NCBI RefSeq assembly: GCF_900113415.1
Contig: NZ_FOPH01000021.1
Location: 1 to 51,427 of the forward strand
Direction of reading: 5' to 3'
Source: Oribacterium sp. WCC10
GTDB taxonomy: Bacteria; Bacillota; Clostridia; Lachnospirales; Lachnospiraceae
DNA: 51,427 nucleotides
Under the pieces are notes generated by a model. That model was not told where the DNA came from and searched no databases. It saw only the letters and a list, made by a program, of their open reading frames with translations. How positions within the stretch are numbered: position 1 is the stretch's first letter; each line of letters starts with the position of its first letter. The position numbers and the translations under genes are program-made. This document shows positions 2,335 through 5,713 of this stretch, piece by piece.

Positions 2335-2353
2335 CTTATTTTTCCTTTCAAGT

Positions 2354-2412
2354 GCAACTGGCTGACCTTTCGGTCCCTATAGCTTTGCGTCGCCGGATTT
2401 CCCCGGTTTTGC
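2354..2412 (-). promoter_or_regulatory. c-di-GMP-I (GEMM-I) riboswitch, gene-proximal copy
   Basis: Read on the minus strand, the element has GCAA opening P1, a CCGG..CCGG hairpin, the diagnostic GACGCAAAGC, then TATAGGG, an ACCGAAAGGT hairpin and the closing GCCAGTTGC. These are the conserved parts of the GEMM-I aptamer. Its 3' edge is only about 7 bases from the AAAGGA ribosome-binding site of the CAP-domain gene, with no terminator in between, so control of translation initiation is the likely output. A GEMM-Ib (cGAMP) specificity cannot be excluded by eye, but the lineage favours c-di-GMP. Confidence 0.9.
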
Positions 2413-2430
2413 TATTTAAATGATTCAGAA

Positions 2431-2465
2431 TAAAAAGAATGGCACCGGAATTGAATTCCGCTGCC
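2431..2465 (-). terminator. intrinsic terminator between the tandem riboswitches
   Basis: On the minus strand GGCAGCGGAATT pairs with AATTCCGGTGCC (one mismatch) and is followed by ATTCTTTTTATT. The bases just before and into the 5' arm read AACTGGC, exactly complementary to GCCAGTT in the closing strand of the upstream aptamer. This looks like a terminator/antiterminator switch: ligand holds GCCAGTT in P1 and frees the terminator. That mechanism is inference. Confidence 0.7.
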
Positions 2466-2533
2466 AGTTAACCTAGAACAATCTTTATTAGTTTTGTATT
2501 TAACTAAGTATGGAGTTTTTCTCCATGAAGATT

Positions 2534-2594
2534 GCAACTGGCTGACCTTTCGGTCCCTATAGCTTTGCGTCGCCGGATTTCTCCGGTTTTGCCG
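2534..2594 (-). promoter_or_regulatory. c-di-GMP-I (GEMM-I) riboswitch, promoter-proximal copy
   Basis: It is almost identical to the copy at 2354-2412 over 59 bases (one difference in the CCGG hairpin loop region), with the same GACGCAAAGC core and GCCAGTTGC end. It is the first of the pair to be transcribed and is followed about 70 bases later by the terminator hairpin at 2441-2465. Confidence 0.9.
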
Positions 2595-2678
2595 AAATGT
2601 GATTTAGGTTATATCACACCTTTAAAGAGAATTACCTTTCTATGTTTGTTTCTGTTTTATATCCTCTTTACATTTTCT

Positions 2679-4891: not shown

Positions 4892-4990
4892 CCACGTATT
4901 CCTATACTCAATAATGCACCATATAGCTTTGAAGCCAGATTCATGCTACACTTAAGTTCAATTATATTCTATATAGGATTGGTCATAATA

Positions 4991-5713
4991 ATGAAAATTA
5001 TACATCATACTTTCCTTGGCTTTATTTTTTCCATAATGCTTATATTTATCAACTTTGTAACGAGCTTTGAAGCGGTATGCTATTGGACACCGGATTTTTA
5101 TAGAAATGAATTTATAAAATATGATGTTACCGGCTCTCTTAAAACATGGATGGGGGAATCCATGAAACTCGACGATATGTGCTATGTTATAGACCAGACT
5201 ATGGTATATCTTCGTGGCGATCGTGAAAATCTTATCATTGAAACAAATATAAATGGCAAACCTGCTATGTTTTATAATGAAAATGAAAAATCTCATATGG
5301 CTGATGTGAGAGATTTATTTGTACTATGTATATTTCTACGAGCTATTTTTATTCTTTCTTGCATAGCCATAGCCGGCTATCTTATAGTTATAGCTAAACC
5401 ATCCGGATCTTTATATTATCTTAGTCGAGGTTATATACACATCTGTCTCATTATACTATTCATTGTCTCGCTAATCGGTATTCTTGCAGCTGCAGACTTC
5501 ACAAAATACTTTACAATATTCCATCAGATTTTTTTCAGTCAAGGCAACTGGTTATTTGATCCAAGAGAAAGTCGTATGATAAACATGCTTCCTGAAGGTT
5601 TCTTTTCTGATTGTGCTCTTAAAATCACTTTTACTTTTATACGTTCAGTTATAGTACTTCTCGTAGCAAGCATATTGGCAGTAGTATTTACCCACAAAAA
5701 AATCTATAAATAA
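4991..5713 (+). CDS. DUF1461/TIGR01906 family integral membrane protein
   Basis: About 240 residues from the ATG at 4991. An upstream in-frame ATG at 4943 exists, but the family usually begins at MK followed by the first membrane helix, as here (MKIIHHTFLGFIFSIMLIF). Four membrane segments are visible: one N-terminal, then one after ~115, one after ~150 and one at the C-terminus. Family hallmarks present are the ENEKSHMADVRDLF segment before helix 2 and the FHQIFFSQGNWLFDP and MLPEGFF stretches in the extracytoplasmic loop before the last helix. Function is unknown in the whole family. No strong Shine-Dalgarno is seen. It lies 13 bases upstream of hflX and may be cotranscribed with it. Confidence 0.8.
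   Translation: MKIIHHTFLGFIFSIMLIFINFVTSFEAVCYWTPDFYRNEFIKYDVTGSLKTWMGESMKLDDMCYVIDQTMVYLRGDRENLIIETNINGKPAMFYNENEKSHMADVRDLFVLCIFLRAIFILSCIAIAGYLIVIAKPSGSLYYLSRGYIHICLIILFIVSLIGILAAADFTKYFTIFHQIFFSQGNWLFDPRESRMINMLPEGFFSDCALKITFTFIRSVIVLLVASILAVVFTHKKIYK

Follow-up and report, generated by a model that had tools for sequence, protein, structure and literature searches.

A tandem of unlike c-di-GMP-I riboswitches, with a candidate docked antiterminator, upstream of a secreted CAP-domain protein gene in Oribacterium sp. WCC10

Two c-di-GMP-I riboswitches lie in series in front of a gene for a secreted CAP-domain protein of Oribacterium sp. WCC10. Here, we argue that it is moderately likely that this tandem represses the gene, probably in two steps, through two unequal sensors and an antiterminator that is docked by an upstream hairpin, which we call P0. 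The window, that is, the whole stretch of 51,427 nucleotides that we analysed, belongs to a genome of 3.64 Mb in 53 contigs. A cmscan search against Rfam 15 placed two RF01051 matches on its minus strand, both covering the full length of the model (1-87): aptamer I, the copy that is transcribed first (51.9 bits, E 2.3e-7), and aptamer II (52.2 bits, E 2e-7). With the gathering score of the family at 35, this covariance-model check bears out the two aptamers claimed by the sequence-only reading, an earlier note made from the letters of this DNA. The copies are in tandem as it stated, spaced by 106 nt rather than about 120 nt, and they are indeed nearly identical, their cores being 0.97 identical and differing, by eye, at two places. 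They are the only GEMM-I matches over the cut-off in the genome, where a third reaches 26.3 bits and falls below. The genome, which has 44 GGDEF matches (43 of them over the family cut-off), thus holds no other locus of this kind above the threshold.

The coordinates of the leader and of the gene are collected in Table 1. The only Pfam match of the CAP protein is PF00188 (64.8 bits, cut-off 21.1), and its start is signal-peptide-like by eye. Of the earlier "surface CAP protein", the CAP domain stands; as no wall anchor was seen in the protein, "secreted" is a safer label than "surface". Compared with 200 dinucleotide shuffles, the 202-nt leader folds lower than every one (z -4.60). A transcription start near 2672 is possible, and the promoter-like site at 2679-2706 is of a kind that occurs at chance frequency. 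Near the CAP locus, at 4943-5713 of the window, lies a Lit-type lipoprotein intramolecular transacylase (PF07314, 129.5 bits).

Table 1. Features of the leader and the regulated gene (window coordinates).
Feature	Position	Strand	Basis
CAP-domain secreted protein, regulated gene, 143 aa	1903..2334	-	ORF and PF00188
Shine-Dalgarno GAAAGGA	2343..2349	-	sequence; predicted mostly unpaired, 0.79
Aptamer II, A20 at 2413, C92 at 2354	2350..2423	-	RF01051
Terminator U-run	2432..2440	-	sequence
Terminator hairpin of first riboswitch	2441..2465	-	fold; place conserved in genus
AACTGGC, terminator foot and partner of aptamer I GCCAGTT	2463..2469	-	paired in all cells, 16 leaders
TAGGTT, P0 loop target, directly 5' of AACTGGC	2470..2475	-	loop-target comparison
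AAGATTG, second antiterminator strand, partner CAATCTT at 2528-2534	2479..2485	-	fold; 87.5% of cells paired (genus)
Linker hairpin H2	2488..2508	-	95.0% of cells paired
Linker hairpin H1	2510..2526	-	87.5% of cells paired; 2/4 pairs with two-sided changes
Aptamer I, G20 at 2593, C92 at 2534, GCCAGTT at 2536-2542	2530..2603	-	RF01051
P0 hairpin, loop 2604-2612 with AACCTA at 2605-2610	2595..2621	-	8/10 stem pairs changed on both sides
Possible 5'-terminal hairpin TAAAGAG...CTCTTTA	2623..2670	-	by eye

We propose that the RNA would make the P0 hairpin first and then aptamer I. In the absence of ligand, GCCAGTT and CAATCTT of aptamer I would pair with AACTGGC and AAGATTG, so that the terminator is blocked and the polymerase reads through. 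The P0 loop, by pairing with TAGGTT beside AACTGGC, would bring the antiterminator strand next to aptamer I, and the second helix could stack on the first. When c-di-GMP is bound, GCCAGTT would stay in the P3 stem of aptamer I, the terminator would form and the gene would be off. In the RNA that is read through, aptamer II would fold just before the Shine-Dalgarno sequence (SD), where its bound form could hinder the ribosome; in clade B of the genus, described below, a separate anti-SD hairpin could hinder the ribosome instead. As one sensor has G20 and the other A20, they may bind c-di-GMP with unequal affinity or selectivity, so that there would be two thresholds.

The first riboswitch probably stops transcription. 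In the leaders of the genus, the linker after aptamer I holds two hairpins, a segment of AAGATT or GAAGGTT type, TAGGTT, AACTGGC and the terminator. The strand GCCAGTT of aptamer I is paired with RRCTGGC in all cells of 16/16 leaders, and no two-sided change is seen since the pair is nearly invariant. AATCTTC is paired with the GAAGGTT-type segment in 87.5% of cells in the 16 leaders, likewise with no two-sided change. For the whole tested structure, paired cells make up 93.9%; shuffling the columns gives 88.1%, and sliding the partners 22.5-49.2% (16 leaders). By sequence and fold, the leader thus has what is expected of a transcription-attenuating OFF switch, namely a terminator and a competing antiterminator that uses aptamer bases. 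Because the antiterminator pair is kept in all 16 leaders, ligand should favour termination, and because the logic resembles that of Cd1 of Clostridioides difficile, ligand should switch the gene off through this platform. The terminator and the AACTGGC/GCCAGTT complementarity had been noted in the sequence-only reading and are present as described there, and the conserved pairing supports the terminator/antiterminator switch that was drawn from them.

The two copies also differ in their 3' strands. Aptamer I has GCCAGTT in 18/18 copies, whereas aptamer II has GCCAGTT in 8/15 and GCCAGCT in 7/15. By eye, the P3 strand that faces it in G004, G012 and G014 is AACT for aptamer I but AGCT for aptamer II. 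It is as if the 3' strand of aptamer I were frozen by a second duty in the antiterminator. By eye too, the consensus A18 is absent from aptamer I in 16/16 rows. In the folding calculations, the antiterminator fold lies 0-3.0 kcal/mol above the minimum free energy (MFE) in 16/16 leaders, and a structure that keeps both aptamer and terminator lies 0-10.8 kcal/mol above it (5.0 in WCC10), by a method that may not model the native aptamer. The MFE structure of WCC10 has the terminator alongside a disrupted P3 foot, which counts against the proposed switch. A simple terminator scan did not call the hairpin at 2441-2465 of the minus strand; the sole site it called is on the plus strand, inside an aptamer.

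P0 is one of two features absent from the sequence-only reading. Its stem of 8-11 pairs abuts the aptamer in 19/19 copies with the 5' context of aptamer I, the lone copy G004c included, and its 3' arm extends into J1/2 of aptamer I. The loop reads AACCTA, GACCTA, AACCTG or TGACCG (TAACCT in G016). In 16/16 leaders it forms an unbroken run of 6-7 pairs with the bases immediately 5' of the antiterminator strand, and its target overlaps that strand by at most one base. Both loop and target have changed in G009/G013 and in G003. On its own target the G009/G013 loop scores 14, against 10-11 on the other targets; scored on the G009/G013 target, the other loops reach 9-12. There are seven distinct loop/target combinations, and among 5000 shuffles of the target 19-132 equal each of them. 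In 14/16 leaders, the exceptions being G001 and G016, the P0 target outscores every unrelated site; the scan gives the first place for each string, and there is a second equal site in G001 and G016 and, for G008, one in the P0 arm. The alignment by MAFFT set the G009/G013 loop one base off, so that it was scored as mispaired there, while the loop-target test is alignment-free.

The case for docking is built on the fixed place of the target beside AACTGGC and on the two-sided changes. The helix loop:TAGGTT directly abuts the helix GCCAGTT:AACTGGC, suggesting that the two stack and that the nascent strand is captured. We propose that P0 docks the antiterminator; such a hairpin would be a new aid to antiterminator closing over a long linker (66 nt here).

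To place these features in the genus, we compared 17 genomes. RF01051 is over the cut-off in 13 of them and has no such match in G002, G006, G007 and G010; G007, without c-di-GMP-I, has one GGDEF match. The 35 matches comprise 15 complete tandem pairs in 12 genomes and five other aptamers, namely a lone one in G005, the lone, recombinant-looking G004c and three near contig ends. A search of five of the genomes for a 16-base core, allowing two mismatches at most, gave one exact match, the known G005 aptamer, while a reversed control yields as many loose matches; c-di-GMP-II (RF01786) had no match in the WCC10 genome, the control likewise being without a match anywhere. The next gene could be read for 14 complete pairs and is CAP in 13, a different secreted protein following in one (G015, contig 7). 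In the CAP tree, which is rooted at the midpoint and has several weak forks, clade B consists of G003, G005, G009 and G013, and clade A of the rest, WCC10 included; the tandem is present in both. As complete tandems occur in 12/17 genomes and in both CAP clades, the pair is old and not recent. The odd P3 loops of G008 and of G009 and G013 are common to both copies within a genome, and in G004c a 5' context of the aptamer I type is combined with a 3' context of the aptamer II type, so the tandem looks like an old pair homogenised by recombination. The near identity of the cores had been read earlier as recent duplication. The genus comparison led us to reject a recent local duplication, which in view of the spread, the lineage-specific P3 loops and the look of G004c we regard as hardly tenable.

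In G004, the locus L084 (G004:C34:10800-13200) has a single aptamer (1005-1078) with P0 and the 5' context of aptamer I, followed by the 3' context of aptamer II and the SD. It appears to have arisen by a recombinational deletion between the two copies, and it offers a natural test of aptamer-SD control without a terminator. The riboswitch/CAP cassette occurs in several near-identical copies per genome in G012 (L079, L080, L093), G004 (L082-L084) and G014 (L085-L088), and, as a repeat would lead one to expect, some of the contigs of G012 and G014 break off within it or close to it. At L091 (G015:C7:155000-158200; aptamer at 1317-1390 of the minus strand), the riboswitch pair and a similar signal peptide stand before another secreted protein of 200 aa with an HELGH motif. 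Its only Pfam match is a sub-threshold Peptidase_M78 (15.3 bits, cut-off 22), and a PDB search gave one hit at E 0.83. Leader and signal peptide may thus move as a module.

Aptamer II has a different setting. No terminator was seen between it and the CAP gene, and the SD GAAAGGA starts 4 nt after its nucleotide 92, in line with the earlier description of a second copy that lacks a terminator and ends close to the SD. The translational control proposed from this fares less evenly, the closeness being real but the SD being predicted mostly unpaired in WCC10 and an anti-SD appearing in the sister clade alone. Across clade A, folding predicts a mostly open SD in 13/13 rows, G004c included (P(unpaired) 0.44-0.87; WCC10 0.79), and no SD partner was found in these 13 rows. 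In clade B, the last aptamer has about 65-105 nt after it, and a hairpin contains the SD in 4/4 leaders (mean P unpaired 0.00-0.18). UCA before and UGA after the clade A aptamer II could, by eye, form a short P1 beside the SD, but as these bases are invariant this proves nothing. Since the SD is predicted open, it is closeness that argues for a translational step in clade A. On these models, aptamer II may hinder translation in WCC10 by its closeness to the SD; translational control is likely in clade B and plausible in clade A.

The other new feature is that one of the two differences between the cores is at nucleotide 20, which is G in aptamer I and A in aptamer II. We assign G20 to Rfam position 11, the base that opens GGCAAA, from the Vc2 numbering in the excerpt of PMC3764141, where a C22-G45 pair, A23, A25 and A47-A49 are given; the cGAMP RNA, with J1/2 at A9-A14 and P2 at C15-G40, agrees with this placement (excerpt of PMC6274999). 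Of the pocket bases G20, A47 and C92, aptamer I has all three, and aptamer II has A20 together with A47 and C92. Thirteen pairs have G in aptamer I and A in aptamer II, and two (G009, G013) have the reverse, so that 15/15 pairs are heterotypic with the order swapped in one lineage; these pairs are not independent and represent two or three events. Among the top-scoring matches listed for other genera, a ranking that disfavours A20, this base is found in 8/52 single aptamers of other Lachnospiraceae. Copies differ in 4/8 arrays of other Lachnospiraceae (one C/G, one a triple) and in 3/10 arrays of other Clostridia, together 7/18 of the top-scoring arrays listed. Heterotypy recurs elsewhere; in Oribacterium it is constant and has survived the order swap. 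The steeper response that had been predicted for two sensors in series does not hold as stated. As 15/15 pairs differ at this selectivity nucleotide, it is no less likely that the tandem has two thresholds or two selectivities. Judging from the sequences, the c-di-GMP affinity or selectivity of the two copies should be unequal, which would give two thresholds, although A20 may be neutral given its presence in 8/52 other aptamers.

Are two sensors, and a docking loop, needed to explain the leader? It is conceivable that the P0 loop is unpaired with its target, P0 being a stable 5' cap for an aptamer without P1 and the match a chance one kept by descent. Consistent with this, the loop covariation comes from two or three events only, and in a 300-nt scan of the 16 leaders, with a shorter loop parsed for G009 and G013, the loop match was reached by 16-151 of 200 shuffles, so it is not rare alone. 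Among 30 GEMM-I loci of other Lachnospiraceae, of which 21 were parsed and nine were not by our pattern, no convincing counterpart of P0-like docking was found in those parsed; eight of the 21 have a hairpin by the same rule, and one of these (L094) has a loop complementarity as strong as one reached by 1/200 shuffles, which is taken as chance. A chance match, however, would not explain why the target keeps its place beside AACTGGC in every leader, why so few shuffles reach each of the seven combinations, or why G009/G013 and G003 changed on both sides, and we consider the cap unlikely, if a serious contender. It could also be that only aptamer I regulates and that the clade A aptamer II is a weak or decaying sensor with little translational effect. 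The open SD of the clade A rows would fit, and in G016 aptamer II has lost C92 and reads GGCGC for GACGC, a reading shared by aptamer II of G015a. Against this, aptamer II scores as well as aptamer I in WCC10, keeps C92 in 14/15 pairs and lies close to the SD, so regulation by aptamer I alone appears fairly doubtful. The G016 copy (L090, G016:C11:44500-47000; aptamer II at 1383-1456) combines A20 with U92, the pair of changes that makes Vc2 bind c-di-AMP according to the excerpt of PMC9049102; as the preceding U-run is short, decay is as likely as a new ligand.

If both copies do act, it remains to be weighed how their difference should be read. Two functionally equal sensors in series could sharpen the response, with G20/A20 being neutral. 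This is the reading of c-di-GMP-I tandems in the published survey, as far as its excerpt goes (PMC9481103), and 11/18 of the top-scoring arrays listed from other genera are homotypic; that all 15 Oribacterium pairs differ at nucleotide 20, in copies otherwise alike, makes it improbable here. Alternatively, the tandem could be a NOR gate for two ligands, in which c-di-GMP is the ligand of the G20 aptamer and c-AMP-GMP (3',3'-cGAMP) that of the A20 aptamer, each signal being enough to turn the gene off. A20 sits at the selectivity base of aptamer II, A20G is reported to have switched a cGAMP riboswitch to c-di-GMP (PMC6456294, in part), and the heterotypy was kept in every pair through the order swap. 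However, A20 is not rare in relatives. At the Hypr position, the 23 parsed GGDEF domains have D (20) or N (3) and never Ser (40 of the 44 were fetched, and 17 fetched and 4 others are outside this count), and PF18144 has no match in WCC10 and one across the 17 genomes of the genus. Aptamer II, though it has A20 as in GEMM-Ib, has a Vc2-like G21-C46 P2 foot and not the C15-G40 of Geobacter. A NOR gate is thus quite improbable, and c-AMP-GMP was rejected as the lead for a second ligand on the lack of a visible synthase and of a Geobacter-type P2 foot. Since no c-AMP-GMP synthase was found in these partial searches of parsed GGDEF domains and PF18144, two c-di-GMP sensors of unequal sensitivity seem likelier, on sequence grounds, than two ligands.

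More broadly, we tentatively put forward, with low confidence, a one-class, two-step tandem whose copies are kept different at nucleotide 20 by selection, for two thresholds or as a NOR gate, with a bipartite antiterminator made of the aptamer 3' strand and an upstream hairpin loop that captures the nascent strand before the decision point. If binding does differ between the copies, many such tandems would be two-threshold or two-input devices.

Tandems of c-di-GMP-I are already known, as is a tandem that combines control of transcription and translation (SAM-II/SAM-V). The literature, cited here from excerpts, counts 347 c-di-GMP-I doublets and 12 triplets, which are usually read as copies sharpening one response; the tables in the excerpt of that survey show no c-di-GMP-I/c-AMP-GMP pair and do not have c-di-GMP-I in the bi-mechanism list (PMC9481103). 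Among the matches listed from the open-licence literature, by title and start of abstract, none dealt with a riboswitch of Oribacterium, with the control of a CAP-domain gene by a c-di-GMP riboswitch, with a tandem of the G20/A20 type or, in GEMM-I, with a loop contact like that of P0. The closest relative of the first platform is Cd1 of C. difficile, an OFF switch that has no normal P1, whose antiterminator takes bases at the aptamer end and in which ligand frees the terminator (PMC9262584). Unlike Cd1, as described in that excerpt, the Oribacterium leader is a tandem, has a P0 loop that can pair beside the antiterminator and has a second aptamer at the SD. The A20 of aptamer II recalls the GEMM-Ib riboswitches of Geobacter for c-AMP-GMP (PMC6456294, PMC6274999, PMC8835794), where some GEMM-I likewise occur in tandem (PMC6456294); its G21-C46 P2 foot sets it apart, as does the lack of a Hypr cyclase among the parsed domains. 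Bc3-5 of Bacillus thuringiensis also has aptamers of the same class in series on one leader, but these are interpreted as three ON switches of a similar kind, with terminators (PMC4759541), whereas in Oribacterium the logic would be OFF, the two platforms are unlike and nucleotide 20 sets the copies apart. Bc1 of the same species is a c-di-GMP-I element with effects on both transcription and translation, and differs in having one aptamer, two terminators and incoherent regulation (PMC11218506). The SAM-II/SAM-V tandem of Candidatus Pelagibacter ubique reads one ligand at both transcription and translation (PMC4759541, PMC9481103), as we propose for Oribacterium; it does so with two aptamer classes, while the Oribacterium leader would use one class twice, with a translational step that is plausible.
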